Origin: Paludibacter sp.
Lineage (GTDB): Bacteria > Bacteroidota > Bacteroidia > Bacteroidales > Paludibacteraceae
Direction: 5' to 3'
DNA length: 34,321 bases
NCBI GenBank assembly: GCA_028691965.1
Contig: JAQUYE010000028.1
Location: forward strand, 1-34,321
Below the pieces are notes generated by a model that was not told the origin of the DNA, did not search any database, and saw only the letters and a list, made by a program, of their open reading frames with translations. The stretch's first letter is position 1, and each line of letters opens with the position of its first letter. Position numbers and translations under genes: made by a program. Below are positions 5,034 to 33,671 of this stretch, piece by piece.

Positions 5034-5175
5034 AACCTGAATAACGGCGAGCTCAACTATGCTATACTGGTTTTATTAGTACTATAACAAACGTGAACGA
5101 AGAAAAAAAAGTTGTTACACAACTCAGAATAAAACTGACAAGTTGAAGAATGATAAACCATTAAACTCAACACAC

Positions 5176-8100: not shown

Positions 8101-10536
8101 GCAAACTTTATAAGCGTAGAACAACAGGAACTGGTACTTTCGCCAAAAACACCGGCCTATTACCGTTGTAGCGTACACGACATTAACTGTGAGCCGCTGT
8201 ATAGCGACACGATCAAAGTAAACCCCTTCGGAGAAGTGCTCTACGATGAAACGGTGAATGTAAGCGGGGAAAAAATGACCATCAGTGTTGATAGCCTGGA
8301 GGTGACATTACCTAAAGGAATACATGATAAGGAATTCCGGCTTACCATCACCAAACTGGATAATCCGCCGGCTCCGCCTGATGGTGTTAAGTTGATGAGC
8401 TCCTATGATGTTACGGTGAGCTTTGCCGAAACATTCGACATTCCACTGGTTATTAAGCTTAAAAACATCGATAAAACACTCTTCGACAATCGGAATATTC
8501 ACAATTACCGGGCAGTGTACTTAGATGAACGAACACAGCAGTGGGTGAATTTCGAGAACAGCTATGTGAGTTTATTAGACACCACCATGGTGTTTGAAAC
8601 CAATCACCTTACAGTTATTTCGGTTGGATGGTGGGACGAATGGGCAGGATATGATAAAGGATATGAACGCAATAACATCCGTGTTTTCTACAAAAGCGAC
8701 AGAGAAGCGTGGATGAACACTACCTACGGTAAACAACAAACACCACAATACTGGCATGTAACAGGTATCCCGACACTGGTACAAGATGTTACAGAATACC
8801 TGGAAGAAGTACGCACAATATTTAAAGCAGCTAACTTTTCAGTTCCCGAAACCTTTACTGTTTACATAAAGGATATGGATGATGCTGATGGTGTAGTGGG
8901 TGTTTCAGGGATGATAAATGATTACCTTACCATTAACACCTTAACAGAGAACCCACTTGACCTGCGTAGCCTACTTGCACACGAGTACATGCACTACACC
9001 CAGGGAAAGCATATATCCCCTGATCCCGGTAATATATTTTGGATGGAGGCTAACGGGCATTTGACCGATCGTATAGTATGGGATACCTCCATTGTACCGG
9101 TTAGTGAGTCGGAGCAGTACCTGCTGAAAGGAAGAACTGCCAGCAACTCGATCTACAACTTCCTTGCCGACTCGTGGGATAGCTGGGATATGGCTTTGGC
9201 AACACAGAATCTATTTGGAAACGTTGATTATTGCTATTTGGCAGGAACTTTTCTGCACTACATGCGTAGCTATTCGGAGGCAGAATCAAAACTGGATCCA
9301 TTTAAGCTTTTAAAAGAGGTAGCCACCTGGGATGGTGCCAGTTGGCGACAGTACTTAAGTAACTACATAGCTTTTTCGATGAATTCGCTGATTGGTGATG
9401 AATACGAGAATTATGTGAAATTTATCCTCAGTGGCGAAGAACCAAATTTCACCATATTGAATACAAGCGGCAATCCATTCAGCGGATTGATAAAGCATTC
9501 AGGCGTTGAAAATGATGGAGTGTTTGCCAGAAGAATCAACTACAGCTTCAACTCGGATATAGTAGAGCCACAGAAAGATACCATTGATGCAACCATCCCT
9601 TATTTAGCATCGAAAGTACAACTGCTTTACAACTCTAATCCTGACAAAGCAGCCTTTGTGTCGTTCAAACGATTGGACAGAGCATCGGGTTATCAACATA
9701 AAATTTACCTTGGGAGGTATAATTCGAAGTTGAAAAAGGTTGAATACACCGACTTGTCTGATTCTACCTCCTACAATTTTATGATAGAAGCAAACACTCC
9801 GACCTCAAAAGCAGAGCTCCAAAACATCTGCTTCCTGCTTTTAATCAACAAGAACAATCCGACAGGGAGCGCAGAGAAAGATTTCGACGCCTTATTTGAA
9901 CTAACAGCTATGCCGGTAATTGACATCGAGTACCTCAAAAGCGGGTATATCGCCGGTGGGAATGGCAGCAACCTGGGTGTTCACACCGACAACAAAGGAA
10001 ATATTACCAATTTCGTGTTATACTCCTATGCTGAATCTCCGGGAGCAAAAGTGAGTTCTGACAGGGTTATATTAAACGATTCTTCGTATCTGGTAACTAC
10101 CAATTACAGTAAGACCGATACCTACGAGTTTGATGACGGAACAACGGTTTATAAACATACGAACGTTTCGGAAGGCACACTAACCATTAGATATAATTTC
10201 TATGCAGGCACCTTAAAAATAGTCAACAAAAGTAAGTATACTGCAAGTGTAACAACGCCAACCCGTGTAAATACCCTGAATTTAGTTAGTACCGGTGAGC
10301 AGATATTACAGGTGAGCAAATTCAATAATTATCAGATCCACAATAAGGAAACCTGGTTTACAACCAAAAACAGCTCCCAAACGCAGGAGGTAGTCGATTT
10401 TATGTCGCAGAAAGGGACATCTACCTACTATAACTGGGATACCGGAGAGCCCTATGAACCTCAACACTCAGAAATAGTGAGTACACAGTACGAAAACGGT
10501 GATATAATTTTAATGCTTTTGTTTAAAAACAGATAA
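5176..10536 (+). CDS. Giant secreted C10 cysteine peptidase / LRR / gluzincin-like protein (full-length paralogue)
   Basis: A 1786-residue paralogue of the preceding gene, 142 bp downstream. I start it at ATG 5176, which begins a signal peptide (MKRY...hydrophobic...LKAQA); an in-frame TTG at 5143 would only add a polar leader. Order: signal peptide; Spi-type propeptide (about 30-140); C10 peptidase with Cys171 (TGCVATA), His293 (GHAVVIDGYD) and NFGWGG; about 15 leucine-rich repeats (about 405-780, of the type LSGSIPxxIGNLTxL); Ig-like and ZU5-like regions; HEYMH at 1269-1273 with Glu1291 as likely third zinc ligand. Both catalytic sets and their spacing are kept in both paralogues, which argues that both sites matter. 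It ends 4 bp from the stop of the convergent UspA gene. The cognate C10 inhibitor seen in some C10 loci was not found. Confidence 0.92.
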   Translation: MKRYCRSSIGFRFVACVVTLLALHAGIALKAQAPDAEGARQVATSFFGARNPQQVKANTRAGHTLSPIYVSADTVQAPVFVFQNNQSGFVVVSQHGSDFAVVGYSTDGRLDPENMPPQLSALLHFYEDSVVSVSQQPLPAATPVMTPLLNEAGISLNQFNHENVGGCPTGCVATAFAQIMAYYKYPSRGNGSHCYTDPQYGELCADFGNTNYNWNTPTYADYELLSYHVGIAIDMNYCKDADGSSPAKFGYERAIGEYFNYYINRGTTESFYIVNEINNRRPVYAELPGDPGHAVVIDGYDTDGFFHLNFGWGGSHNGYFALNTNSRMNVGYEFGTNVSSVVCMTPTPLKTNEQDSLALVADHNGLNGTTGWELTKPVFTWTGVLVMNERVIRLRLNNTVYSTYKGVIAPEIGNLSELTELNLLGQFDGELPASIANLSKLKTLSIAAGAGTFKAVLPANIGNLTRLERLSIPYVIEGELPSSIGSLTELRELNLSSGKLTGALPAELGNLTKLENLNLYRNQLSGSLPASIGNLTQLSGLDVAENQLSGSIPTGIGQLTKLTTLGLSNNKLTGPIPSSIGNLTQLTVLLLNNNALTGAIPAEIGNCVNIKNLGLSENQLEGAVPAGIGMLSAVESLNISKNKLTSLPNEIGRLKNVKELYVNSNRLSSLPDSLSELPLLTNISASNNLIDSLPDNFGNWSQLQSVGLANNKLRIFPDQLCYAPNLKVLDFKNNRIEALPASVDLLSSSIEYFSIDSNFVSGPIPAVLMENPNLLSNLRFNRFMFEDIPTPNPTLYNGIGNQRPVTLSKRIINVGMGDTVQLDIRTLAPFTLEGNEYYWYSVNQKKNVSTTSNPILEIVIDEKTLNNRYYCNITNPTSPEYKYISGSYNVMLPCLSALTTDTLSFRLATDEELLAEHYTDSYVVSSNNLPQKTVENRIVTLVPPLKVRGTVQWQASADGTSWHDLSASMSQNDLKANFISVEQQELVLSPKTPAYYRCSVHDINCEPLYSDTIKVNPFGEVLYDETVNVSGEKMTISVDSLEVTLPKGIHDKEFRLTITKLDNPPAPPDGVKLMSSYDVTVSFAETFDIPLVIKLKNIDKTLFDNRNIHNYRAVYLDERTQQWVNFENSYVSLLDTTMVFETNHLTVISVGWWDEWAGYDKGYERNNIRVFYKSDREAWMNTTYGKQQTPQYWHVTGIPTLVQDVTEYLEEVRTIFKAANFSVPETFTVYIKDMDDADGVVGVSGMINDYLTINTLTENPLDLRSLLAHEYMHYTQGKHISPDPGNIFWMEANGHLTDRIVWDTSIVPVSESEQYLLKGRTASNSIYNFLADSWDSWDMALATQNLFGNVDYCYLAGTFLHYMRSYSEAESKLDPFKLLKEVATWDGASWRQYLSNYIAFSMNSLIGDEYENYVKFILSGEEPNFTILNTSGNPFSGLIKHSGVENDGVFARRINYSFNSDIVEPQKDTIDATIPYLASKVQLLYNSNPDKAAFVSFKRLDRASGYQHKIYLGRYNSKLKKVEYTDLSDSTSYNFMIEANTPTSKAELQNICFLLLINKNNPTGSAEKDFDALFELTAMPVIDIEYLKSGYIAGGNGSNLGVHTDNKGNITNFVLYSYAESPGAKVSSDRVILNDSSYLVTTNYSKTDTYEFDDGTTVYKHTNVSEGTLTIRYNFYAGTLKIVNKSKYTASVTTPTRVNTLNLVSTGEQILQVSKFNNYQIHNKETWFTTKNSSQTQEVVDFMSQKGTSTYYNWDTGEPYEPQHSEIVSTQYENGDIILMLLFKNR

Positions 10537-21683: not shown

Positions 21684-22850
21684 TCAGAGTCCGGGTAGTC
21701 GCGGTATCTTACCGGTCTTGGTCCATTTCTGGTACCATCCCCACCCTTTCTTCATCCAGTGACCTACCACAGGCATCGGAATAATATATTCCTTATGAAT
21801 ATCCCGGTATACATAGGCTGCTCCATCGCCGGTATCCATCACACACAGGATACTGATGTGCTCGTGATAATTTTGAAAATCAGAACCACCGGTTTCGGTC
21901 TGCAGTATATTATGCGCTGCAAATCGTCCCATTATTTCTGCCAAATGCCCCTGCTTAGCAACAAAGTCAGTTCCCTCAAGTCCGGCAGAATCACCTACAG
22001 CCCACACATTGTCAGAACCGATAACTTTGCAGTATTTATCTATGTGGATAAAACCGGCTTCTGTCAACGGAAGATCTGATTGTTTGAAAACAGATGATCC
22101 TGTACCGGCAGAGATGAACATGGTAAGGTCGGAAGTTAATTTGGAATTATCCTCAAACACAACTCCATCAGCTTCAAACTGTACTATCTTTTTCCCTAAA
22201 TGTTGGTGAAGGTTTCTTTTTGCAAAGAGCTTTCCCATCATTTTCAGGGCACCCTTCCCCATACGGGCACCGGGCTGTTCCATGGGAGCAAAGAAATTCA
22301 GTTCAAATTTGTCGCGCAGGCCTTTTTTACGCAGGTAATGATCGATATTAAAGATCAATTCAAAACCCGGTCCGCCCCGTACAGCCGATTTATCTTTCGG
22401 ATTTCCCCCGAAACCGATAGCTATTTTACCTTCGCCCTTCTTAACCAATGCCTGGAAAGCATCACGAAACGCAAGGTTTCCTTCGGGAGCACCACATATC
22501 GTAAAGGTATGGTCTACTCCTTTGGGTTGTAGCTTATCTGCCCCGATTGCGACTACCAGGTAATCGTAATCGAGCACCTGGTGTTGTAGCTCTACTTTAT
22601 TTTCAGCAGTCCGAATGGAAACAACCTTATCAATCACCAATCGGAACGGAAAGGCTTTCTGAATCTTTTGCAAGGGCAGCTTGACATTCTTGAACTGAAT
22701 GCCATCCGTGGGTATCCAGATAGAAATCGGATACAGATACAGGTAATCGCGGTTTGAAACCAGCGTAACCTCAAAGCTTTTGCTTTTCTGCAAAGCGATA
22801 GCAGCTTCGACTCCGGCAAATCCGCCTCCTAAGACCAATACCTTTTTCAT
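21684..22850 (-). CDS. SQR-like FAD-dependent oxidoreductase
   Basis: 388 residues from ATG 22850 (an upstream in-frame TTG is less likely). A dinucleotide-binding GGGFAG at 8-13 starts an FAD fold; the second Rossmann segment, TSDLTMFISAGT and the FAD motif VWAVGDSAGL follow, as in the sulfide:quinone oxidoreductase / type II NADH dehydrogenase superfamily. Cysteines lie at 119 (TICGAPEG), 274 and 336 (SILCVMDTGDG). The mid-protein active-site Cys of classical SQR appears replaced within RGGPGFELIF. The C-terminus (WMKKGWGWYQKW) is amphipathic and could dock on the membrane. It starts 12 nt after the CoA-disulfide reductase gene, so a role in sulfide or persulfide oxidation is plausible; quinone reduction is unproven. 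Confidence 0.82.
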   Translation of the reverse strand: MKKVLVLGGGFAGVEAAIALQKSKSFEVTLVSNRDYLYLYPISIWIPTDGIQFKNVKLPLQKIQKAFPFRLVIDKVVSIRTAENKVELQHQVLDYDYLVVAIGADKLQPKGVDHTFTICGAPEGNLAFRDAFQALVKKGEGKIAIGFGGNPKDKSAVRGGPGFELIFNIDHYLRKKGLRDKFELNFFAPMEQPGARMGKGALKMMGKLFAKRNLHQHLGKKIVQFEADGVVFEDNSKLTSDLTMFISAGTGSSVFKQSDLPLTEAGFIHIDKYCKVIGSDNVWAVGDSAGLEGTDFVAKQGHLAEIMGRFAAHNILQTETGGSDFQNYHEHISILCVMDTGDGAAYVYRDIHKEYIIPMPVVGHWMKKGWGWYQKWTKTGKIPRLPGL

Positions 22851-22862
22851 AAGCAATTATAA

Positions 22863-24869
22863 TTAAGAGCGACGCATCATCATGTGCATTAAACCGCCAC
22901 CATTAGTTACATTAGTGAAACCAAAATGTTGCAGTACACGCTGAGCATAGGCCGATCGGGCACCACTGGCACAATAGAGGGTAATTTCACGATCCTTAGC
23001 TCCCAGTTCGTCGATGCGGTTTTGAAGTTCATCCAGCGATATATTTATTGCATCAGGATAGGCTCCAGAGCGAAACTCCTCGGGAGTACGCACATCAACC
23101 ACCAGGGGAGAATTTGTGTCGGCAACCACTTCTTGTGACGAGGCTGTTGCTTCTTCGTTCGCCACTTCAGCGTCCAGCCTTTTCTCTTCAACCGGAAGCA
23201 GTTCGAGTCGCAGGTGATCAAAACCAACAGCCTGCTGGTGGCGTTGCAGTGAAATATGTCCCCCTGACACATTGAATACCTTATCGATACCGGCACCCTT
23301 AATCATTCGCAAAGCCTGATGACCTTTCTTTCCGGTTTCGTCATATACCAGAATCATCCTGTTACGGGGAAGTGCATGCAAATTAGCCGGCAACATCTCA
23401 AGCGGTACATTATACGACCCCTCAATATTGGTTTTATCGAAGGCGAACACATCGCGAACGTCGATGATTAGTGGTTGGTGTTCTTTTACAAATTCATCCA
23501 GCTCAGTAACTGTGATGGCAGGACTATAAGCACTTGTACGGTTTTCGGCAGCATAGGCAGCCATGTTCATTGCATCATTGGCAGTACCAATAGGAGGAGA
23601 ATATGCAAAATCAATATCTGCTACATCGTGAATGGTAAGCTTTGAAGCTACAGCAGTTGCGATAACATCCAATCGCTTGTCAGCGCCTTTGTATCCGGCA
23701 GTTTGTCCCCCCAGGATGCGTCCGGTTTCACGATCATACACCAACATGACAGTCACGTTTTCTGCTCCGGGATAATACGAAGTGTGATGTTCCTTGTGAA
23801 CTACCACAGCATCGGCAGGAATGCCGGCGGCACGTGCCTGTTTCAACGATAATCCTGTAATTCCGGCTACAGCTTCAAACACGCGTACTACTGAAGTACC
23901 CATAGAACCCTTGTAGGCATGTTGTCCGCCTAATGCATTCTCAGCAGCTATACGTCCCTGGCGGTTAGCAGGACCGGCCAGCGGGATACGAACCTTTTTA
24001 TTCATCACCCGGTGTTCAATCTCAACCATGTCACCCGCTGCATAAATCGACGGGTCGGAAGTCTGCATGTATTCGTTTACCAGCAAGCCACCCGCTTCTC
24101 CCAATTCGAGTCCTGCATCTTTTGCCAGTTGCAATGTCGGACGAACTCCAATGGAAAGCAACACCATATCAGCTTTCAACACCTGACCATTATCCAGTTT
24201 TACAGTACTGTGACCTATTTCGGTAACACCTTTACCAGTATGAACGTTCACGCCGTACGAAAGCATTTCAGTTTCAATGAATCCTGCAGTTTCAGGCTCC
24301 ATAAGCGCCATCACGTGAGGCATCATCTCCACCACACTCACCATGATTCCACGCTTGGTCAACGCTTCAACCATTTCAAGGCCGATAAATCCACCTCCCA
24401 CAACAACAGCATGTTGCGGTTCTTCCTCATCGATAAAACGGGCAATAGAATCCATATCTTCCAGTGTCCACAGGGTAAAGACATGTTCTTGTTTAGCACC
24501 GGGAAGATCGGGAGTAATGGGCCTGCCCCCCTGAGCCAGAATTAATTTTGTATAGTCGAAGGTAGTCAGTTCACCACTACGTACATCACGTGTAGTTACC
24601 CGTTTATTGTCACGATCCAGTATCGTCACCATTGTATGAGTGTGAACCTCTACATTGTATTGTTCGTTAAAACTTTCGGGACTTTGCAGGATTAGCTTCG
24701 AACGGCTTTTAATGTCGCCACCAATATAATAGGGCAATCCGCAATTTGCAAACGAAATATCCGGACCTGCTTCCAGCAGGGTGATTTGAGCATCAGGAGA
24801 CAGGCGGCGGGCTTTGGCGGCTGCCGTTGCTCCGGCAGCCACACCGCCTACAATAAGAATCTTTTCCAT
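22863..24869 (-). CDS. CoA-disulfide reductase with two C-terminal rhodanese domains
   Basis: 668 residues from ATG 24869. FAD motif GGVAAG (8-13); redox-active Cys43 in SFANCGLPYYIGG, the same position as in Staphylococcus aureus CoADR; a second nucleotide site VVVGGGFIGLE; FAD motif IYAAGD; and the C-terminal YSPPIGTANDAMN block of the family. Two rhodanese modules follow. The first (about 450-545) has Asp510 (VYDETGKKG) where the catalytic Cys should be and is probably non-catalytic; the second keeps Cys633 (YCASGARSAY). Such enzymes reduce CoA disulfide, CoA persulfide or polysulfide with NAD(P)H. The middle gene of a three-gene thiol redox operon. Confidence 0.93.
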   Translation of the reverse strand: MEKILIVGGVAAGATAAAKARRLSPDAQITLLEAGPDISFANCGLPYYIGGDIKSRSKLILQSPESFNEQYNVEVHTHTMVTILDRDNKRVTTRDVRSGELTTFDYTKLILAQGGRPITPDLPGAKQEHVFTLWTLEDMDSIARFIDEEEPQHAVVVGGGFIGLEMVEALTKRGIMVSVVEMMPHVMALMEPETAGFIETEMLSYGVNVHTGKGVTEIGHSTVKLDNGQVLKADMVLLSIGVRPTLQLAKDAGLELGEAGGLLVNEYMQTSDPSIYAAGDMVEIEHRVMNKKVRIPLAGPANRQGRIAAENALGGQHAYKGSMGTSVVRVFEAVAGITGLSLKQARAAGIPADAVVVHKEHHTSYYPGAENVTVMLVYDRETGRILGGQTAGYKGADKRLDVIATAVASKLTIHDVADIDFAYSPPIGTANDAMNMAAYAAENRTSAYSPAITVTELDEFVKEHQPLIIDVRDVFAFDKTNIEGSYNVPLEMLPANLHALPRNRMILVYDETGKKGHQALRMIKGAGIDKVFNVSGGHISLQRHQQAVGFDHLRLELLPVEEKRLDAEVANEEATASSQEVVADTNSPLVVDVRTPEEFRSGAYPDAINISLDELQNRIDELGAKDREITLYCASGARSAYAQRVLQHFGFTNVTNGGGLMHMMMRRS

Positions 24870-24921
24870 TGTAGATTGAATCAAAAAAAACTAATTATTA
24901 AAAACAGTATGTATTTATTTC

Positions 24922-26190
24922 TCACATTTCTTTGCTGATAGTCATTGCAGCAACAGTACCATCAGCAACAGCTGTAGTAATCTGCCGGTACTTTTTACTT
25001 ACAATATCACCGATGGCAAATACATCGGGTAAGGAGGTGCGACGGTCTTCGTCGGTTTTAATATATCCCCATTGATCCAGCTCCGGCACTACCGAACCCA
25101 GCACTGAGGTATTGGCTTTAAACCCAATGAACACAAAAACACCATCGGCATCCAGTTCGAACAACTCCTTTGTTTTCAGGTTTTCCAGAGTGGCAACCAT
25201 CTTATCGGCCCGTTTCTCAAACTTGCGTGGTTCATGAGAGTAAAGAACCGAAATCCTGTCGTTCGCTTTCAAATGTTCAATAGCCGTCTGATTAGCTGTC
25301 AGCGCATCAAACTGATGTACCATAGTCACCTTGCTGGCAAATTTAGTGATAAAGAGCGCCTCTTCGACTGCAGAGTTTCCACCGCCTATTACAATTACTT
25401 CCTTATCAACATAATATTTCGCATCACAGGTAGCACAATAGGAAATTCCCTTCCCTTTGAATTCATTTTCTCCGGGAGCATTCATTGTATTGGGAGAAGT
25501 ACCAGTACTGATAATAATTTTTTTAGCACGGATAGTTTCCAGCTGATCAATAACTATTTCCTTTTTAACCAGATCCACAGAACTTACATCCACGGCTACT
25601 TTAAAATCGATTCCTGTTTGCTTAGTCTGCTCACTCATGTAATGAGCCAGCATATATCCATTCTGAGGTTGGTCGAAACCCGGATAATTTGAAACCTGAT
25701 GAGTGATACCCATATAACCACCCGGAAGTGCCGGATCGATTATAACGGTGTTAATCTTTGCCTGACCAAGGTACAATCCGGCAGTGAGTCCGGCAGGACC
25801 GGCTCCGAGAATAGCTACATCGTATTCTGAAATCACAGGTTTCATCCGTGATTTGATCGTCTTCACTTCCTCTGGACTTATCATTTTATCCAGGCGATCC
25901 ATGATTTCGGACTTCTTTATTCCACCACTTATCGTATCCAGTATTTGTTGTCCGTTGTCGAAAAACAATAAGGTGGGTGAAGAACTTACACCTAATTGAG
26001 CAGCCAGTTCACGGTTTCCCTGACGGAATATCTTCAGAAATTTAATCTTCTCACCATAGAGTTCGGCCATTGACTCAAACTTAGGAGCCAACGCTTCACA
26101 GGGAGGACATTCAGTTGAATAAAAGTCCAGGACTACCTTTCCTCCTTCTAACACTTCTTTTGGGAAGTCTGATGCATTAATTTCTTTCAT
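24922..26190 (-). CDS. Thioredoxin-thioredoxin reductase fusion
   Basis: 422 residues from ATG 26190; the longer reading frame upstream crosses the promoter and is rejected. Residues 1-105 form a thioredoxin fold whose active site is Cys28-Pro-Pro-Cys31 (STECPPCEAL) instead of WCGPC, with the cis-proline in SSSPTLLFF. Residues 121-422 are a low-Mr thioredoxin reductase: FAD motif GAGPAG (129-134), redox pair Cys252-Ala-Thr-Cys255, NAD(P)-binding GGGNSAVEEA, and the C-terminal FAD motif FAIGDI. The fused domain order is thioredoxin first, opposite to the mycobacterial fusion. The product would pass electrons from NAD(P)H to its own dithiol domain and on to unknown partners. First gene of the operon, driven by a consensus promoter. 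Confidence 0.93.
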   Translation of the reverse strand: MKEINASDFPKEVLEGGKVVLDFYSTECPPCEALAPKFESMAELYGEKIKFLKIFRQGNRELAAQLGVSSSPTLLFFDNGQQILDTISGGIKKSEIMDRLDKMISPEEVKTIKSRMKPVISEYDVAILGAGPAGLTAGLYLGQAKINTVIIDPALPGGYMGITHQVSNYPGFDQPQNGYMLAHYMSEQTKQTGIDFKVAVDVSSVDLVKKEIVIDQLETIRAKKIIISTGTSPNTMNAPGENEFKGKGISYCATCDAKYYVDKEVIVIGGGNSAVEEALFITKFASKVTMVHQFDALTANQTAIEHLKANDRISVLYSHEPRKFEKRADKMVATLENLKTKELFELDADGVFVFIGFKANTSVLGSVVPELDQWGYIKTDEDRRTSLPDVFAIGDIVSKKYRQITTAVADGTVAAMTISKEM

Positions 26191-26400: not shown

Positions 26401-26440
26401 CACCTATCCCATCGGATTGAACCGAAAAACTCAGCCTGCT

Positions 26441-27250
26441 ATGTTAGACCAGACATTAGAGAATAAAATATTACGGCAGCAGCTTGACCAGCTCAGGAAA
26501 GACTTTGCAACAAAGTATGAAGAGCGAAATCATATGCTACTCTACGAAGAGCCACTGTTGAATTCAATCTACCTTACTACGGTAGGAACGATGCAATTCC
26601 GTGTATTTACGCTGAGAGGTGACTTAGCCATCCTGGAAGAAAAGATTCGGCTTGGCCAGATCGACTTTAACAGAAATGTACAACCCGACTGGTCTCAGAT
26701 TGAAGCGACAGTTAAAGAACAATTTCAGGACTATCAGCACAAAGTCAATAAGGAGGCCAACCGACTGGCCGCTGCTAAAGAAGTACTTAAATCCGATTTT
26801 TTATCTTCTGAAGAAACTGCTCAACTTAAAGAAACCTATAAAATATTAGTCAAACGTTTGCATCCGGATTTGAATCCGAATCAATCAGATGCAGATAAAG
26901 AGTTGTTCGTGAGCGTACAGGCTGCCTATAATCATAGTAACCTTACTGCCCTTACAGAGGCATTATTGTATCTTAATGGCAGAACAGAACAGGCTCCTGT
27001 AGTGGAAAGCAGTGATATACACCAGCAAGTTGATCATCTGTCAGCAATGAATGCTGACCTGCAGAAGAAAATAGATACACTTAACGATAGTTTTCCATTT
27101 AACTTTCGCGAGCTGCTTGACGACGAAAGATGGATAGAGAAGCAACAAGAGCAGTACCAATTACAAATTACCAGTCTGGAAACTGAACTCACTCAAAAAA
27201 ATGAATACCTATTATTATTAATGTCATGGAAACCGGAATTACTCCATTAA
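26441..27250 (+). CDS. J-domain-like protein with flanking coiled coils
   Basis: 269 residues from ATG 26441. The centre holds a J-domain: helix II TYKILVKRLHPDLNP with the His141-Pro-Asp143 motif that stimulates Hsp70, then SDADKELFVSVQAAYNHSN as helix III. Charged helical regions rich in Gln, Glu and Lys lie on both sides (1-110, and 195-269) and look like coiled coils. No glycine/phenylalanine region, zinc finger or membrane segment, so it is not a DnaJ proper but a dedicated co-chaperone of unknown client. Its last 25 nt overlap the HIRAN gene, implying tight coupling with it. Confidence 0.8.
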   Translation: MLDQTLENKILRQQLDQLRKDFATKYEERNHMLLYEEPLLNSIYLTTVGTMQFRVFTLRGDLAILEEKIRLGQIDFNRNVQPDWSQIEATVKEQFQDYQHKVNKEANRLAAAKEVLKSDFLSSEETAQLKETYKILVKRLHPDLNPNQSDADKELFVSVQAAYNHSNLTALTEALLYLNGRTEQAPVVESSDIHQQVDHLSAMNADLQKKIDTLNDSFPFNFRELLDDERWIEKQQEQYQLQITSLETELTQKNEYLLLLMSWKPELLH

Positions 27251-27615
27251 CTCCCGAACTATTAGCCCTTATCGGAAATGGTGGTGTCACAGCCCTGGCT
27301 CCCTTCAGTCGTGAAATTTATCTTTTAAGTATTGTTGTTGCCGGTACCAGCTTTTGTGAGACAATCGGCGAGTTAGAACCTCAACTGGTAGAGGGTACGG
27401 CCCTCCGCATGATTCGTCAGCCGGATAATAACTATGATGACCAGGCAATTGGTATTTTTTATAATACAACTCGTGTCGGATGGGTTCCTATGGAGGAGAA
27501 TCCTGTTATATCAAGGTTGATGGATGCAGGAAAAGCTTTTTTCTGCAGAATAGAGTCCACCTCCCGTAAAGGGAAGTGGGTAAAAATAAAAGCAGCCGTT
27601 TATATGGTCGAATAG
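27226..27615 (+). CDS. Stand-alone HIRAN-domain protein
   Basis: 129 residues. A HIRAN domain fills residues about 30-125: VAGTSFCE at the first strand, LRMIRQPDNNYDDQAIGIFY (the REPxNxyDxxAI-type core), RVGWVPMEENPVISRLMDAG, and a final strand. In eukaryotic HLTF this domain grips 3' single-stranded DNA ends, fused to a helicase; here it stands alone. It overlaps the J-domain gene by 25 nt in another frame, so the two are cotranslated and may act together, for example in recruiting Hsp70 to a DNA-bound complex (inference). Stop lies 10 bp from the stop of the convergent radical SAM gene. Confidence 0.82.
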   Translation: METGITPLTPELLALIGNGGVTALAPFSREIYLLSIVVAGTSFCETIGELEPQLVEGTALRMIRQPDNNYDDQAIGIFYNTTRVGWVPMEENPVISRLMDAGKAFFCRIESTSRKGKWVKIKAAVYMVE

Positions 27616-27625
27616 TAATTAGTCC

Positions 27626-28924
27626 TTAACTAAAATAGTAAGAGGCTCCAAGTGATAGCAACTCGTTCACCGGCCGGCAATCGGGAGAATGAACACTTCC
27701 CCATTTATTTTTTGCAACAGAAGCACAACCTCCTCCACAAGCAAGTGCCAGTTCACAACTACGACATTGTTCGATCGTTGTAACATCTCTGCTCTGCCAG
27801 TCTTCAATAAGCTCATTACGTCGGGTTACTTCCGGGAAAAAGGTACCCAACTCCTCCCCCTGTTTTCCAACGGTTGCAGTACAGGAGTAGATTGTGCCGG
27901 TATAATCGAATGCCCATTCGGTTTTGCAGGCCGGACAGGAATCAAATAATGGAGTGGGTAATGCTCCGTTTTCTTTAATATACTTTGAAATAGAAAAAGC
28001 CGGCTTGTAAAACTCTGCAATATGAGGATGCACTTTTAACAGTTCATACAAGTAACGATACAGACTTGCCCGATCAAAAAGCCGATCGGGACTGCTGTTG
28101 CAAACATGCAATTCATAATTTCGTCCAAGTTGCGTTTTAAAGAGTGGTGACTGAGTCCATCCTTTTTCAATTGCAAAGCTTGCCATTGATGCCAGGTTAT
28201 CAATATTATCTTTATCCACAACCATGCGAAGGTTAATTTCTATACCTGCTGCCATACAGGCATCAATGCCTTCTACAATTCGTTGGAAAGTAGGCAGCTT
28301 TCCATGCATATAGCGACGTTGATCATGAATTTCGGCAGTCCCGTCCAGCGTTACCTGTATTTCGCGAACAGAAGCTTTCTTTAATAAATCAATATACGAA
28401 GTAAGCGTATACCCGTTAGTAACAAAGGCCAGGTCGAGCCCTGACTCATTTGCTTTATCAATTAAATAGGCAATCAACATACGCTGGCGATCACCCGGCA
28501 TCAGGGGTTCACCTCCGAAAACGGTGATGTATTTCTTTCTGCCTGCAAATTCTTTGTTGATATATGCAAAAAAGGCATCAATAACAGCCTCCGACAATTG
28601 TTGCTTAACTGGCTCGTAACCTTCCTGATAACAATAGGTACAGGCAAAGTTACAGGAGTAGTTTGGCACAAAAAACAATTGAACTTCATCTTCTTCACGC
28701 TTTTCCTGAAAATCAAGATATGCATACTTAAGTGCCTTTTTTTCCTTTTCAGGATCAACAAGGTAACCACGTGAAGCAAACTCCCCTTGCGGATCTTCTT
28801 CCTTTTTCAACAACTCCATTTCATCGGCCGACAAGATATCAGCTGATTTATAAAGAGGATTCACAACAAAGAATTCGTCGGAGTCGGTGATAGGCACCAG
28901 TATGTTGTGCTTGGATAATGACAT
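27626..28924 (-). CDS. Radical SAM/SPASM peptide-maturase-like enzyme
   Basis: 432 residues. Residues 1-80 form an N-terminal region of unknown fold. The radical SAM cluster motif is Cys91-x3-Cys95-x2-Cys98 (CNFACTYCYQEGY), followed by the glycine-rich FGGEPLM and a TIM-barrel segment. The C-terminus is a complete seven-Cys SPASM domain: C-x9-G-x4-C (in ACKTEWAFDYTGTIYSC), then C-x2-C-x5-C-x3-C (CRSCELALACGGGC), then a last Cys (SPDC). SPASM enzymes of this type modify ribosomal peptides or act as sulfatase maturases; no sulfatase gene is present, so peptide modification is preferred. It starts 9 nt after the outer-membrane protein gene, in the same operon as a Cys-rich small peptide. Confidence 0.92.
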   Translation of the reverse strand: MSLSKHNILVPITDSDEFFVVNPLYKSADILSADEMELLKKEEDPQGEFASRGYLVDPEKEKKALKYAYLDFQEKREEDEVQLFFVPNYSCNFACTYCYQEGYEPVKQQLSEAVIDAFFAYINKEFAGRKKYITVFGGEPLMPGDRQRMLIAYLIDKANESGLDLAFVTNGYTLTSYIDLLKKASVREIQVTLDGTAEIHDQRRYMHGKLPTFQRIVEGIDACMAAGIEINLRMVVDKDNIDNLASMASFAIEKGWTQSPLFKTQLGRNYELHVCNSSPDRLFDRASLYRYLYELLKVHPHIAEFYKPAFSISKYIKENGALPTPLFDSCPACKTEWAFDYTGTIYSCTATVGKQGEELGTFFPEVTRRNELIEDWQSRDVTTIEQCRSCELALACGGGCASVAKNKWGSVHSPDCRPVNELLSLGASYYFS

Positions 28925-28933
28925 ATAATTAAT

Positions 28934-30169
28934 TTAAAATACGTAACCTATGTTCAGTGACAATGGCACCTTAACGGCATCATTGGTTGGAAAAATATTC
29001 CCGTTAGAATAATGCCCGATTTTCAGCTCGGCATTATAACGACGATCTTCTCCGAAAAAGATTCCTGCTCCCATGTTATCCATAAAGGTGAACTTCTCAC
29101 CGGTATCAAAACCATCAATAATCGTTTTAGAAATAAACGTTGGCGCAGCTACAGTGTAATAGAAATAGGCATCGAATAAATCTGTATGCAGAAAATTGAG
29201 ACGGAAAACCGGGAAGATGGATAAGGTAAAGAAATTCTCACGTGCTAATTGTGTATCGTTATGAAGACCGGTAGTTTGCCACACCGAGGCATTGACACCC
29301 CAATCGAGTGCGAAAAACTTCTCACTGTGAAACACATTTCGCTGGTAATTAAGTGACAGTCCCTGACGCACATGAGCCATCCCGCCCCAGAATATCGGGA
29401 AATACTTGTTCGACACCAGATTATTCACACCATATCCCAGTACATTGCTGGTAAAGCCCAGTTGAAGCCATTGCTTGGGATGAATCATACCTATGTCGGC
29501 AGTTTTCTTCAATTGTTTTTCAGTATAGGGTACAAACTGGTACGAGAATCCTCCACCAACAAACGACGTATAGGGTTGATTGTGTTTCTCGGATGCCGGA
29601 GAATAATTACCTACCAACTGCAAAGCCCACTTTTTAGTTAAATGGTATTTTAATCCCGCTCCAAACAGAAAAGTTCCGAAGTTCTTATCTTTTACAACAG
29701 CGTTTCCCTGATGATCCTTAAAACCGGCCCGAGTGATAATGCCAAGTCCTCCCTCACCATAGACCGAGAATTTATCTCCGAGAGGCAACCTGGCTTTCAT
29801 AGTGAAACCACCCACATTCGTCCATACCGAACGGAGTTGTTCTTCTCCCCCCTCTGAATATGCATACTTTACCCAGGATACCGGGTGCATATAGGTTATC
29901 TGTGCCGCAATATAATCATTGAAATTGTATCCCCACAGTACCAGTCTTACTGCTGTATGGGGAACAGTAACTCCTACCAGGTTATACCCGGGCTCCAGTT
30001 GTTCAGCACCGAAAGGATAATTAATGGATCCAAGGGTGACTTCAAAATAGGAACGCTGTAGAAGTAGTGGAATCTGTGAACGTTCGTCCTGAGCTAAAAG
30101 AGTTTGGGATGCTAATAAAAAGAATACAGGTAATAAGGCAAGAATCAGTACTTGTTTTGCAGGTTTCAT
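28934..30169 (-). CDS. Double-barrel outer-membrane protein with PagL-like C-terminal half
   Basis: 411 residues with a signal peptide ending near LLAQD. The sequence looks like two barrels in tandem. The N-terminal half (about 35-215) resembles a small OmpA-type barrel with strands such as FSVYGEGGLGIITRAG and WALQLVGNYSP. The C-terminal half (about 225-411) resembles the lipid A 3-O-deacylase PagL/acyloxyacyl hydrolase barrels, with the active-site strand IGHYSNGNIFPTND (His386, Ser388) and end NIGYVF. The position of the third catalytic residue (Glu140 of Pseudomonas PagL) is Lys400, so activity is doubtful. Sits between the Cys-rich peptide and the radical SAM gene, so a role in export or surface attachment of the product is possible but unproven. 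Confidence 0.8.
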   Translation of the reverse strand: MKPAKQVLILALLPVFFLLASQTLLAQDERSQIPLLLQRSYFEVTLGSINYPFGAEQLEPGYNLVGVTVPHTAVRLVLWGYNFNDYIAAQITYMHPVSWVKYAYSEGGEEQLRSVWTNVGGFTMKARLPLGDKFSVYGEGGLGIITRAGFKDHQGNAVVKDKNFGTFLFGAGLKYHLTKKWALQLVGNYSPASEKHNQPYTSFVGGGFSYQFVPYTEKQLKKTADIGMIHPKQWLQLGFTSNVLGYGVNNLVSNKYFPIFWGGMAHVRQGLSLNYQRNVFHSEKFFALDWGVNASVWQTTGLHNDTQLARENFFTLSIFPVFRLNFLHTDLFDAYFYYTVAAPTFISKTIIDGFDTGEKFTFMDNMGAGIFFGEDRRYNAELKIGHYSNGNIFPTNDAVKVPLSLNIGYVF

Positions 30170-30212
30170 TGAATAGTAATTGTATATAATATTATATAGT
30201 ATACAGGCCTAT

Positions 30213-30245
30213 AAAAACAAACCCCACCGACATACGCCGGCAGGG
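30213..30245 (-). terminator. Hairpin terminator/attenuator after the Cys-rich peptide
   Basis: On the minus strand a 10-bp stem (with G-U pairs), CCCTGCCGGC / GTCGGTGGGG, closes a 4-nt loop and runs into TTTGTTTTT. It begins 18 nt after the peptide stop and lies 43 bp before the outer-membrane protein start, so it would reduce downstream expression relative to the peptide. Confidence 0.75.
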
Positions 30246-30262
30246 AATGAGGTTGATGATAG

Positions 30263-30364
30263 TTAGTCGTGACAACCAGCTACCACTGTTGAAACTTTAG
30301 CGCAACACTGTGCGAGTTGTTTCGAACTGTTGCATCCGCAACTCTGATTTACTACACTTCTCAT
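30263..30364 (-). CDS. Small cysteine-rich peptide, candidate RiPP precursor or metal-binding peptide
   Basis: A 33-residue open reading frame from ATG 30364. It begins MRSVVNQSCGCNSSKQ and holds five cysteines at 9, 11, 20, 21 and 31, plus a C-terminal Cys-His-Asp. I do not recognise the family. Support for a gene: it begins 26 nt after the methyltransferase stop on the same strand, ends just before a Rho-independent-type hairpin, and lies upstream of a SPASM radical SAM gene, the usual place for a precursor of a modified peptide. No strong Shine-Dalgarno (AT-rich leader, as common in Bacteroidota). No signal peptide. It could be a leaderless precursor, a thiol-rich metal(loid) chelator, or chance; the CGC and CC pairs would suit As(III) or Cu(I). 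Confidence 0.6.
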   Translation of the reverse strand: MRSVVNQSCGCNSSKQLAQCCAKVSTVVAGCHD

Positions 30365-30390
30365 ATGATATAATTTTGAATGAATAGTTC

Positions 30391-31017
30391 TTATTTTTCT
30401 CCTGAAATGGTAAAACTGGCTACTTCAGCCTTTCCTTTTGGATAAGGTTTTGACTCCTCAAAGATACGTATATTACGGAAACCAGCCTCTTCGAGCATTG
30501 TTAAATACTCGGCGCGTGTTACGGCTCCGGCCCAACATTCGGCAACTGCTACCGGATCGGTACGATATTCTTCCGAAATTGGTGATGTAGCGTAAATATC
30601 ACTTACCACAAAGCGTCCACCGGGTACAAGTACACGGTAAACTTCTTTCCATACAGCTGGTTTATCAGTTGCATGATTGATTGTACAGTTTGAAATCAGG
30701 CAATTCACCGAATCCGCATCCAGTGGTAACTGTTCTAATTCTGCTTGTAAAATCTTAGCATTCGTAACTTCAAATTTTGCAAGATTAGCAGTGGCCTTTG
30801 AAATCATCCCTTCCGAAATATCTACACCATATACAAATCCTGTATCGCCTACCTCATCGGCCAGTTTTATAACATCAGTTCCGCGGCCGCTACCCAGATC
30901 AACACAAACCTCACCTGCTTGTGGTTTGGCGTAATTGATTGCCCCTCCGCAGGAAAGGCAACAGCTGGTTTCGCTCAGGTTAGTATAGCGTTCATTGATG
31001 GCTGAGGATCGTTGCAT
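30391..31017 (-). CDS. ArsM-like SAM-dependent methyltransferase
   Basis: 208 residues. Class I methyltransferase: motif I VCVDLGSGRGTD (37-48), acidic loop GVDISEGM (64-71), VLVPGGRFVVSD (129-140). It carries the arsenite methyltransferase cysteine pair: Cys111 in LISNCTINHATDK and Cys161 in AECWAGA, exactly 50 residues apart, as Cys174 and Cys224 in the Cyanidioschyzon ArsM. Extra cysteines sit at the N-terminus (19, 20, 23). It is shorter than typical ArsM (about 260-400) and lacks the C-terminal domain. It could methylate As(III) or a related soft metalloid, or a thiol. First gene of the cluster with the Cys-rich peptide; divergent from the membrane AraC regulator. Confidence 0.88.
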   Translation of the reverse strand: MQRSSAINERYTNLSETSCCLSCGGAINYAKPQAGEVCVDLGSGRGTDVIKLADEVGDTGFVYGVDISEGMISKATANLAKFEVTNAKILQAELEQLPLDADSVNCLISNCTINHATDKPAVWKEVYRVLVPGGRFVVSDIYATSPISEEYRTDPVAVAECWAGAVTRAEYLTMLEEAGFRNIRIFEESKPYPKGKAEVASFTISGEK

Positions 31018-31042: not shown

Positions 31043-31050
31043 CAAAGATA
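31043..31050 (-). promoter_or_regulatory. -7 promoter box for methyltransferase/peptide transcript
   Basis: The minus strand reads TATCTTTG, an exact TAnnTTTG, 26 bp before the methyltransferase ATG. No clear -33 element. Confidence 0.55.
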
Positions 31051-31111: not shown

Positions 31112-31119
31112 TATCTTTG
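31112..31119 (+). promoter_or_regulatory. -7 promoter box for the membrane AraC gene
   Basis: TATCTTTG, identical to the box of the divergent methyltransferase, 31 bp before ATG 31150. It overlaps the in-frame TTG at 31117, which therefore cannot be the start codon. Confidence 0.55.
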
Positions 31120-31149
31120 TTGAACTATAAAACATTCCAGAAGCAACTT

Positions 31150-32232
31150 ATGATTATACTGTTGTGGATAGGTATCACTCAGAGTCTCTTTGCTGCCATC
31201 TTGATGTTTACCAAGAAGGAGAATTCACTGCCGGATAAGATTTTATCCGGATTGCTTACACTACTTGCAATTGAGTTTACTACCTGTCTTGTGGATTATC
31301 AACTTTTTTCCATTCCACTTCTATCCAGTTCCTTTTTACTTTTAAACCCGGCTCTTTATATTTATATACGATCACTGACACAAGGTGATTTTAGTCTCCG
31401 CTATATCCAATTATTGCATCTGTTGCCCTTTGTCGGTTTTGAAATCTATGCTTACATCAGCAAAGAACCACTGGCACTCGATAACTATTTTGTACGTGAC
31501 GAACAATTCATATACCGAATTATCTTTGGTGCAGCCAATCTGATTTCATGGTCGATTTACAATCCTTTAAGCCTGATTCTGGTTCACCGTCATAGAATGA
31601 ACCTGCGAAACGAACAATCGCACATTGAAAAAAACGACAAGCTGGGATGGGTATTGTTTATAACTATTTTCTATGTAGTATATTGTCTTCTTGCTATTCT
31701 TTCAGCAAGTCTTGTGTTTTTCGGATCACACCCGCTTACTTCCCATTTCTTCAATTATTCCGTTCTCCTGGTAATGATTTTGATTATGAGTGCTTACGGG
31801 CAGCGTCAACAGAAGGTACCAGTCACCCTCCTTAAAAAACGAACAGCTGTCAGTTATCAAAATTCCCTGTTAAGTGATGAAAACAAGCAAAACATAGCTG
31901 AACAACTCATCCATTATACTGAGCAAAATAAGCTATGGCTCAATCTGGACCTGAACATGGATGCCCTGTCGACAGCTCTTAAAGTTCCCAAGTATCAGCT
32001 CACCGAAGTATTAAATACTCAACTTGGCAGAAACTTTTTTCAGTTTATCAATCAGTACAGAGTGGAAGCTGTAAAAGAAATGCTTGCCAACCCAACTATT
32101 AATTACTCAATAGAAGCAATCGGTTACGAATGTGGTTTTGCAAGCAAATCGGCCTTTTATACTGTTTTCAAACAAATGACCCGGCAAACTCCCACAGAAT
32201 ACAGACAAAAAACTGCTCCAAAGTCCAAATAG
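31150..32232 (+). CDS. Membrane-embedded AraC-family regulator
   Basis: 360 residues from ATG 31150, chosen because the promoter box covers the earlier TTG. About seven hydrophobic segments fill residues 1-225 (IGITQSLFAAILMFTKK, ILSGLLTLLAIEF, ..., VLLVMILIMSAYGQ), followed by a linker and a C-terminal AraC double helix-turn-helix (about 260-355: NMDALSTALKVPKYQLTEVLN, SIEAIGYECGFASKSAFYTVF). Such 7-helix AraC proteins are common in Bacteroidota and are thought to sense an envelope signal while bound to the membrane. It lies directly upstream of the barrel and exporter genes and divergent from the methyltransferase cluster, so either may be its target. Confidence 0.9.
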   Translation: MIILLWIGITQSLFAAILMFTKKENSLPDKILSGLLTLLAIEFTTCLVDYQLFSIPLLSSSFLLLNPALYIYIRSLTQGDFSLRYIQLLHLLPFVGFEIYAYISKEPLALDNYFVRDEQFIYRIIFGAANLISWSIYNPLSLILVHRHRMNLRNEQSHIEKNDKLGWVLFITIFYVVYCLLAILSASLVFFGSHPLTSHFFNYSVLLVMILIMSAYGQRQQKVPVTLLKKRTAVSYQNSLLSDENKQNIAEQLIHYTEQNKLWLNLDLNMDALSTALKVPKYQLTEVLNTQLGRNFFQFINQYRVEAVKEMLANPTINYSIEAIGYECGFASKSAFYTVFKQMTRQTPTEYRQKTAPKSK

Positions 32233-32252
32233 GTGACAAACGCTCTTCAGGT

Positions 32253-32299
32253 TTTAAAATCAGGACAACATCTAGTTGTGTCGACTTTAAAATCAGGAC
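32253..32299 (+). promoter_or_regulatory. Two 14-bp direct repeats, 33 bp apart
   Basis: TTTAAAATCAGGAC occurs at 32253-32266 and again at 32286-32299, spaced by 33 bp (about three helical turns, same DNA face). They lie between the AraC regulator and the barrel gene. AraC-family proteins bind direct repeats, so these are candidate operators of the neighbouring regulator. Confidence 0.55.
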
Positions 32300-32317
32300 T
32301 TTTGTGTTCTACAAAAG
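32299..32317. promoter_or_regulatory. Inverted repeat upstream of the barrel gene
   Basis: CTTTTGT (32299-32305) and ACAAAAG (32311-32317) form perfect 7-bp arms with a 5-bp spacer, 22 bp before ATG 32340. A smaller dyad (ACAAC-N5-GTTGT, 32265-32279) follows the first direct repeat in the same way, so each 33-bp unit is a repeat plus a dyad. Confidence 0.4.
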
Positions 32318-32339
32318 AAGTAACATTACATTAAAAAAT

Positions 32340-33671
32340 ATGAAACAAGCATTCATACTAACAGTAGTGTTACTTATTACCAGTACAGGTATTTCTGCTT
32401 TCGATACTGTGGCGACTGAAGCTGAAAAAAGTTCAACGGCTCTATCAGGTTATGCAAGAGCTTCAGCCTGGGGAGGTGGAAGTGCTTTCCCGATGACTTC
32501 CCTCTTTGCCGAAATTTCATTACAAAGCGAAATTACCTTTAGTAAGGTATATGCAGAAACCGATATCCGACTGCGTAAAGGGTATAGGTTCGGAGAAGAA
32601 GAGCAGCTCATTGACATTAATAAGTTAGTAGTGGGTTATAGTGGTAAGCTGGCAGATATTCGGCTGGGATATCAGGATGTTGCCTGGGGGCGGACTGATG
32701 GATTTAATCCTACTAACTACCTGCAATCATACGACTACTTCTACCTGACTGCTGAACCCGACGATCAGTCTGACCCAAACCTGGCTTTACGGACCCGCTT
32801 CCGACTTTCAGCCTACACTGAACTGGATCTGGCAGTAATGCCCTTTTATCTGCCCTCGGTATACAGGTACGAGTTATTTGATTTAGGAGAAAACGTCACT
32901 TTTACCGAACCGCACTTTCCGGAGCCAACGCTTGACAACGGTAGTATTGCCGCCCGACTTAATTTCGACTTCCCTGCAGTAGGAGCGTCTGTTTCGGCAT
33001 TTCGTGGCTATGATCCTTACCATGGATTCCGGGTAAAAGATATCGATTGGGCCACAGGTACTCCGCGCATCACCAACCAGGCCGCAAGTTATCAAAAAAC
33101 CAGTGTGGGTGCCGACCTGGCTATTCCTTTACCTAATATTATTATTAAGGCTGAAGCAGCATGGAATAGTACCGACAATCCTGAAAATGCAATGCATATT
33201 CCGAATAGTTATTGGATGTATGTGGGTGGCATCGAAGCGAACCCGGGTTCCACAACTCTAATTGTGAACTATATTGGTTATTGCAATCCGAATTTCACCT
33301 CCCTGCAGATTCCACAACCGAACGACCCCATGAATCCCATGCCACAACCAGCTTATGCAATGGCACTGATCGATTACGAAAACCGACTCTTCAACCGTCG
33401 TATTTTTCATCAACAGGAGAAATTCAATCACGCTGCATCGCTTTCACTACTCCGCAACTTCAGCTACGATGCCTGGCAGGCACAACTTACTACTTATTAC
33501 GACATCACTTCCGGGGAGTTAATGATTCGACCGGTTCTTAAATGGAACGTCAATGACCAGCTAAGTCTGACCGCCGGAGGAAACTATATGTACGGCAAAT
33601 CAGGCACTTTGTTTGACTATAGCTCATCGGTAATGAACGGAGCTTTTCTGGAATTCAGAGTAAAATTTTAA
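32340..33671 (+). CDS. Outer-membrane barrel protein partnered with an MMPL exporter
   Basis: 443 residues from ATG 32340, which opens a signal peptide (MKQAFILTVVLLITSTGISA); the longer frame from 32130 overlaps the AraC gene and is rejected. The mature chain is strand-rich with segments such as ITFSKVYAETDIRLRKGYRF, LADIRLGYQDVAWGRTDGFN and a terminal barrel strand FLEFRVKF. The GRTDGFNPTNY element is like that of DUF1302-type outer-membrane proteins often encoded beside RND/MMPL transporters. The MMPL gene starts 11 nt after its stop, so it is likely the outer-membrane partner. Substrate unknown. Confidence 0.82.
   Translation: MKQAFILTVVLLITSTGISAFDTVATEAEKSSTALSGYARASAWGGGSAFPMTSLFAEISLQSEITFSKVYAETDIRLRKGYRFGEEEQLIDINKLVVGYSGKLADIRLGYQDVAWGRTDGFNPTNYLQSYDYFYLTAEPDDQSDPNLALRTRFRLSAYTELDLAVMPFYLPSVYRYELFDLGENVTFTEPHFPEPTLDNGSIAARLNFDFPAVGASVSAFRGYDPYHGFRVKDIDWATGTPRITNQAASYQKTSVGADLAIPLPNIIIKAEAAWNSTDNPENAMHIPNSYWMYVGGIEANPGSTTLIVNYIGYCNPNFTSLQIPQPNDPMNPMPQPAYAMALIDYENRLFNRRIFHQQEKFNHAASLSLLRNFSYDAWQAQLTTYYDITSGELMIRPVLKWNVNDQLSLTAGGNYMYGKSGTLFDYSSSVMNGAFLEFRVKF

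Follow-up and report, generated by a model that had tools for sequence, protein, structure and literature searches.

A near-invariant cysteine-containing peptide encoded with a radical SAM/SPASM enzyme, an ArsM-type methyltransferase and a thioredoxin–thioredoxin reductase fusion in Bacteroidota and Spirochaetota

Overall description

Analysis of a 34,321-nucleotide stretch of Paludibacter sp. DNA (contig JAQUYE010000028.1 of assembly GCA_028691965.1, positions 1 to 34,321, referred to here as the window) together with related loci identifies a core module of four genes. These encode an ArsM-type methyltransferase dependent on S-adenosylmethionine (SAM), a small cysteine-containing peptide, a radical SAM (rSAM) enzyme with a SPASM region and a fusion of thioredoxin with thioredoxin reductase. 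The 33-residue micro open reading frame (micro-ORF) of the peptide is confirmed as a genuine gene, and its core is clearly under strong purifying selection. It is moderately likely that the module makes and maintains a small rSAM-modified thiol peptide for intracellular sulfur or metalloid redox chemistry. In the window the four genes are located as follows.

30391..31017, minus strand: ArsM-type SAM-dependent methyltransferase (208 residues; Pfam Methyltransf_31, 102 bits)
30263..30364, minus strand: precursor-type peptide, the micro-ORF (33 residues; C-terminal core AQCCAKVSTVVAGCHD)
27626..28924, minus strand: radical SAM/SPASM peptide maturase, the rSAM (432 residues; Pfam Radical_SAM)
24922..26190, minus strand: thioredoxin–thioredoxin reductase fusion (422 residues; Pfam Thioredoxin and Pyr_redox_2)

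Genome contigs scanned for the rSAM yielded 190 relatives, and the analysis used the best 80 (57–78% identity; 71 loci from Bacteroidota, seven from Spirochaetota and two unassigned). Counts over 81 loci comprise these 80 relatives and the window, and counts over 80 the relatives only. The rSAM is present in 24 of 60 close relatives of the genome from which the window comes. Loci L040 and L075 belong to one assembly (KR4_bin-0449) with a copy of the module at each, and some genomes or bins may thus carry two. A tblastn search with the rSAM returned 180 plasmid records, all below 60% identity and the best at 27–30%; these include no close copy, and a plasmid origin was rejected.

An earlier note, made from the window sequence alone, had described the methyltransferase, the micro-ORF, an outer-membrane protein and the rSAM as a cluster on a single strand with small gaps. 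The four reading frames are indeed open on the minus strand, with gaps of 26, 93 and 9 nt. The PagL-like outer-membrane protein, which the note counted as a member, is ruled out of the core, as it occurs only in the window and at locus L001 (2/81 loci). The thioredoxin–thioredoxin reductase fusion, which is part of the core, had been overlooked.

Peptide gene

The micro-ORF of the window encodes MRSVVNQSCGCNSSKQLAQCCAKVSTVVAGCHD. Of the 80 relatives, 78 have a reading frame of 31–39 residues with the same core upstream of their rSAM gene. The core, A-Q-C-C-A-K-x-S-x-x-x-x-G-C-H-D-stop, is C-terminal, with the stop codon right after GCHD in 78/78 cases, and follows a lysine-rich leader of variable length. 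Twelve of the 16 core positions never vary among the 78 loci, and the invariant residues other than cysteine are Ala, Gln, Ala, Lys, Ser, Gly, His and Asp. Since 78 of 80 rSAM loci carry the peptide with 12 of 16 core residues identical, the conservation of the micro-ORF is far beyond chance. The three core cysteines (the CC pair and the last) have identical spacing in all 78. The peptide had been described as having five cysteines, which is correct for the window; the family conserves three, and the first two are a feature of one clade.

Comparison of 77 distinct cores (2,926 pairs) gives a ratio of nonsynonymous to synonymous differences (pN/pS) of 0.13 (pS 0.79, pN 0.11). The corresponding ratios in the shifted frames are 1.7 and 1.1, a control limited to the 22 and 29 sequences that have no stops there. 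Codons at the invariant core positions vary freely. Both the conserved cysteine spacing and the synonymous bias that had been proposed as a check on the micro-ORF are therefore observed.

The two exceptions, L067 and L071, come from genomes in which a methyltransferase 67–68% identical to that of the window is encoded elsewhere and the peptide adjoins that copy; in the L071 genome the pair shares a contig with the rSAM, at a distance of about 10 kb. All 80 rSAM loci thus come from assemblies that have the peptide. The linkage of micro-ORF, methyltransferase and rSAM proposed in the earlier note accordingly holds, with the peptide beside the rSAM in 78 of 80 relatives and beside the relocated methyltransferase in the other two genomes. 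That note had also named the patterns that would speak against a common system, namely a micro-ORF that is not conserved or genes that occur only apart; both were looked for and neither was found. Each of the two genomes with a split module also has a second methyltransferase (loci L121 and L122), a 282–296-residue open frame with 34–35% identity that is possibly an ordinary ArsM, and no peptide-like reading frame was found at either of these loci.

The peptide stop codon lies 2–14 nt from the rSAM start in 20 loci. The peptide gene is followed by 35 nt or more of free space in 58 loci, and 18 of these have a terminator-like hairpin there versus 0.25 expected from shuffled sequences; such a hairpin would be expected if the peptide is produced in larger amounts than its enzymes. 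The peptide matches no Pfam or NCBIfam model at cut-off, and no paper on it was found in the literature searched, a coverage that mostly leaves out subscription journals. A table in PMC10352776 lists no radical SAM-only region for two Paludibacteraceae genomes.

Co-inheritance of the module

In tblastn searches the methyltransferase is found in 76 of 81 loci, the window included, and the fusion in 77. The five loci that lack the methyltransferase are L032, L060 and L078, where the contig ends are too close, and the split cases L067 and L071. In 74 of the 81 loci the start of the fusion is 1–2 kb downstream of that of the rSAM, and three of the four genomes without it at the locus have it elsewhere.

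Co-occurrence was assessed by sampling 395 Bacteroidota genomes, six of which have the rSAM at 56% identity or more; four more matches at 28–32% identity mark loci without the peptide. The same six genomes have the methyltransferase at 58% identity or more (one weaker match, at 43%, occurs besides) and the fusion at E ≤ 1e-120, and all three proteins reach at least 55% identity there. These genomes represent five genera and five families, and in all six the three genes are close together on one strand; in the two that share a genus (G047 and G393) the fusion lies before the methyltransferase. Across 67 loci, the pairwise distances of rSAM, methyltransferase and fusion are correlated (Spearman 0.77–0.81).

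Radical SAM enzyme

The three cysteines of the CxxxCxxC motif (Cys91, Cys95 and Cys98) are conserved in 81/81 loci. The SPASM region contains eight cysteines, of which Cys330, Cys348, Cys387, Cys390, Cys396, Cys400 and Cys416 are present in 81/81 and Cys333 in 79/81, in agreement with the intact SPASM domain recognized in the earlier note. The best family scores are with CefB (NF038107; 143 bits against a cut-off of 600) and TIGR04463 (142 against 525), and the enzyme, being below both curated cut-offs, is a member of neither family. The closest solved structures by sequence and fold are 5wgg and 5why, whose titles refer to thioether bond formation in sactipeptides, at 49 bits and 16–18% identity. 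In the predicted model, residues 8–68 form three strands followed by three helices, which is the order found in the leader-binding RRE domain.

Methyltransferase

The methyltransferase scores 187 bits with the NCBIfam arsenite methyltransferase model NF008823, below its cut-off of 263. Its predicted model has a mean predicted local distance difference test score (pLDDT) of 89.4, and the top 13 Foldseek matches to it are ArsM/AS3MT chains, with a template-modelling (TM) score of 0.82 over the query for 4fr0. Cys23, Cys111 and Cys161 align with Cys72, Cys174 and Cys224 of CmArsM, which are named as arsenic-binding sites in PMC3877260. The arsenite-type cysteine pair noted earlier is thus present together with the third arsenic-binding cysteine, all three in 73/73 sequences. 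The idea that the module handles a metal or metalloid gains weight from the conservation of all three cysteines that bind arsenic(III) in ArsM. Cys20 and Cys38 are likewise found in 73/73 sequences and Cys19 in 72/73.

Of 73 loci, 39 have a CxC or CC pair in the tail of the methyltransferase, 26 have one in the peptide leader, one (L023) has both and seven have neither. Such an exchange, given as a lead only, would be compatible with a thiol pair that performs one and the same hand-over whichever partner carries it. Mapped on the tree, it comprises six changes in the tail and three in the leader, and the swap is mainly one change in a Paludibacter-like clade in which L023 and L022 are basal. 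As evidence for contact between methyltransferase and peptide it was rejected, since what is essentially a single clade change has no statistical weight (pair test, p 1).

Thioredoxin reductase fusion and gene neighbourhood

Both CxxC motifs of the fusion (Cys28/Cys31 and Cys252/Cys255) are conserved in 75/75 sequences, and the protein scores 302 bits with TIGR01292, below the cut-off of 343. For the human methyltransferase, PMC5410354 reports that reductants work by breaking a disulfide between cysteines of the enzyme; this suggests a possible role for the fusion.

A coenzyme A (CoA)-disulfide-reductase-like match is found in 60 of 81 loci (tblastn, E ≤ 1e-5), a count that may include other flavin adenine dinucleotide (FAD) reductases, and a sulfide:quinone-reductase-like match in 23 of 81 (tblastn). 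Among the neighbour clusters, each named from one representative, those with DUF1847-like (31/31), DUF302-like (29/29), DUF6132-like (20/23) and thioredoxin-containing (172/179) proteins have the same orientation as the rSAM. A domain scan covered 115 of the 260 listed operon-type neighbour proteins, all from loci L003–L047, and identified thioredoxin (25), DUF1847 (16), rhodanese (11), Pyr_redox_2 (9), DUF302 (8), YgaP (4) and OsmC (2) domains. The neighbourhood is thus a sulfur and thiol-redox setting. An arsenic resistance operon was rejected, as the 25 commonest neighbour families include no arsenic family.

Divergently upstream of the methyltransferase in 25 loci, and always on the opposite strand, is a gene for a protein of about 142 residues with an IS1595-type transposase zinc ribbon (for example L010:4539-4967, minus strand), perhaps a transposase-derived regulator.

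Other features of the window around the module are the following.

31117..32232, plus strand: AraC-type regulator, divergent from the methyltransferase (Pfam HTH_18)
31043..31050, minus strand: TATCTTTG, candidate -7 box of Bacteroidetes type, 25 nt upstream of the start of the methyltransferase (weak)
30222..30245, minus strand: terminator-like hairpin and T run with a 10-pair stem, directly 3' of the peptide gene
28934..30169, minus strand: outer-membrane protein with OMP_b-brl and PagL regions (411 residues; Pfam), a local addition outside the core
22863..24884, minus strand: CoA-disulfide-reductase-like protein with a C-terminal rhodanese-type part, a recurrent neighbour (TIGR03385, 434 bits, below cut-off)
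21684..22856, minus strand: sulfide:quinone-reductase-like FAD protein, a recurrent neighbour (NF049943, 91 bits, and TIGR03169, 95 bits, both below cut-off)

Two plus-strand genes (DnaJ-like and HIRAN-domain; 26417–27615) part the rSAM from the fusion in the window, and neither was matched in the other 80 loci (tblastn). The AraC-type regulator and the 443-residue protein that follows it (31117–33671) have close relatives only at L002 and L027 among the 81 loci (tblastn). The assignment of TATCTTTG rests on what we take to be the Bacteroidetes -7 consensus, TAnnTTTG, and is weak because the window has 38 copies of this pattern over its two strands. The window contains no Rfam match and no tRNA. 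At its other end (99–10536), two adjacent genes encode very large proteins (1644 and 1797 residues) with leucine-rich-repeat-like stretches and, as judged by eye, a mutually similar layout.

Functional interpretation

What is observed is the make-up of the module, the joint inheritance of its genes, the invariance of the core and the active-site residues; from these we infer the following reactions. The rSAM would recognize the leader and modify the fixed core, the most probable change being a link between a neighbouring residue and at least one of the three core cysteines. With a thioredoxin of its own, the fusion would keep the cysteines of the peptide and of the methyltransferase reduced. 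The three-cysteine site of the methyltransferase would act on a soft acceptor bound to thiol, which could with about equal likelihood be a metalloid presented by the peptide or the peptide's own thiol. The product is probably intracellular and cofactor-like rather than a secreted antibiotic, as suggested by the near-invariant core and by neighbours that include thioredoxins, rhodaneses and CoA-disulfide-reductase-like, DUF302 and DUF1847 proteins. Few near-invariant peptides made by rSAM systems are known, and these are more often cofactors or housekeeping factors than antibiotics.

A more specific version, possible but rather doubtful, is a metalloid-handling ribosomally synthesized and post-translationally modified peptide (RiPP), in which arsenic, selenium, tellurium or antimony would be held by the three cysteines of the peptide, methylated there and recycled by the thioredoxin reductase. 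The rSAM-modified peptide would then be a dedicated thiol ligand and carrier for the ArsM-type methyltransferase. The host bacteria may lack glutathione.

Several observations weigh against the rSAM-modified thiol peptide in general. Neither a leader protease nor an exporter is among the 25 commonest neighbour families, and the metalloid branch in particular is weakened by the lack of an arsenic family among these 25 (of 67 families in all; each of the other 42 is matched by no more than one of the 115 proteins). A search of the L058 genome at E ≤ 1e-100 did not detect the fusion, and the overlap in six of 395 genomes is less independent than it appears, since the genomes are related and two share a genus. 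No Pfam RRE-type model matched the N-terminal region of the rSAM. Finally, the rSAM model has a mean pLDDT of 75.5 and is poor in the SPASM region, with values below 50 at residues 386–417.

Alternatively, the peptide could be an unmodified three-cysteine carrier of metal or metalloid, similar to metallothionein or phytochelatin, that supplies the ArsM-type enzyme with a soft metalloid such as arsenic(III), while the rSAM acts on something else. The three invariant peptide cysteines, together with methyltransferase cysteines equivalent to the arsenic(III) binders of CmArsM, are consistent with such a carrier, and a cysteine pair present in the methyltransferase tail or in the peptide leader but rarely in both resembles a thiol pair passed between partners. 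This explanation is nevertheless unlikely: conservation with the peptide is as tight for the rSAM as for the methyltransferase, the rSAM falls in a peptide-maturase group, arsenic genes do not recur nearby, and the pair exchange carries the weight of one clade change. A peptide secreted as an antimicrobial or a signal, with cross-links from the rSAM, methylation by the methyltransferase and export by general machinery, would account for the adjacency of precursor, rSAM and methyltransferase, which is a common RiPP layout, and for the outer-membrane protein within the window operon. However, antimicrobial cores usually vary, whereas this one is near-invariant over two phyla; the 25 commonest neighbour families include no exporter or protease, the outer-membrane protein is local and a dedicated thioredoxin reductase would be unusual, all of which makes an ordinary RiPP improbable.

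The micro-ORF might also be regulatory, a leader peptide whose cysteine codons gauge the supply of cysteine by attenuation, without being a product in itself. Its tandem cysteine codons recall such an element, as does the terminator-like hairpin after it, seen in the window and at 18 of the 58 loci. The other 40 loci with room lack the hairpin, however, the reading frame lies between operon genes and not at their front, and it stays with the methyltransferase when the operon splits. Selection on cysteine codons alone is ruled out as the principal explanation by the eight invariant non-cysteine core residues, the codons of which vary, so that attenuation is very improbable. The rSAM-modified thiol peptide remains the preferred interpretation. 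It would offer a handle on the treatment of reactive sulfur or metalloids in anaerobic, sulfide-rich bacteria. The occurrence of the peptide with its partner genes in many uncultured bacteria suggests a thiol or metalloid chemistry, based on a peptide, that has not been described.

Comparison with known systems

The module resembles known rSAM peptide systems in kind, and a metalloid-handling RiPP would be a larger step. By fold and cysteine layout the rSAM is similar to the ranthipeptide-type maturases 5wgg and 5why, which we take to be the CteB and SCIFF maturases, and in these systems too a short cysteine-containing precursor adjoins the rSAM. The SCIFF precursor is kept across many species, as is the peptide described here. 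The module differs in its precursor and in the low similarity of the rSAM mentioned above, and we know of no ArsM-type partner or thioredoxin reductase in the CteB/SCIFF systems. CefB and TIGR04463, which give the top family scores while remaining far from their cut-offs, are likewise rSAM maturases of cysteine-rich peptides.

With the ArsM/AS3MT enzymes (CmArsM, 4fr0) the methyltransferase shares the fold, the three predicted arsenic(III)-binding cysteines and, in 39 of 73 module loci, a cysteine pair in the C-terminal tail. At about 208 residues it has no counterpart of the C-terminal part of CmArsM and, unlike those enzymes, it is partnered with a peptide and a rSAM. The combination of a SPASM maturase, a three-cysteine ArsM site and a private thioredoxin reductase was not met in the literature searched.

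In outline the module would work like the pathways to pyrroloquinoline quinone (PQQ) and mycofactocin, peptide-derived redox cofactors for which a SPASM rSAM modifies a near-invariant C-terminal core. It differs from both in that Pfam detects no PqqD homologue in the rSAM, the core is thiol-rich, and an ArsM-type enzyme and a thioredoxin reductase take the place of the dehydrogenases.

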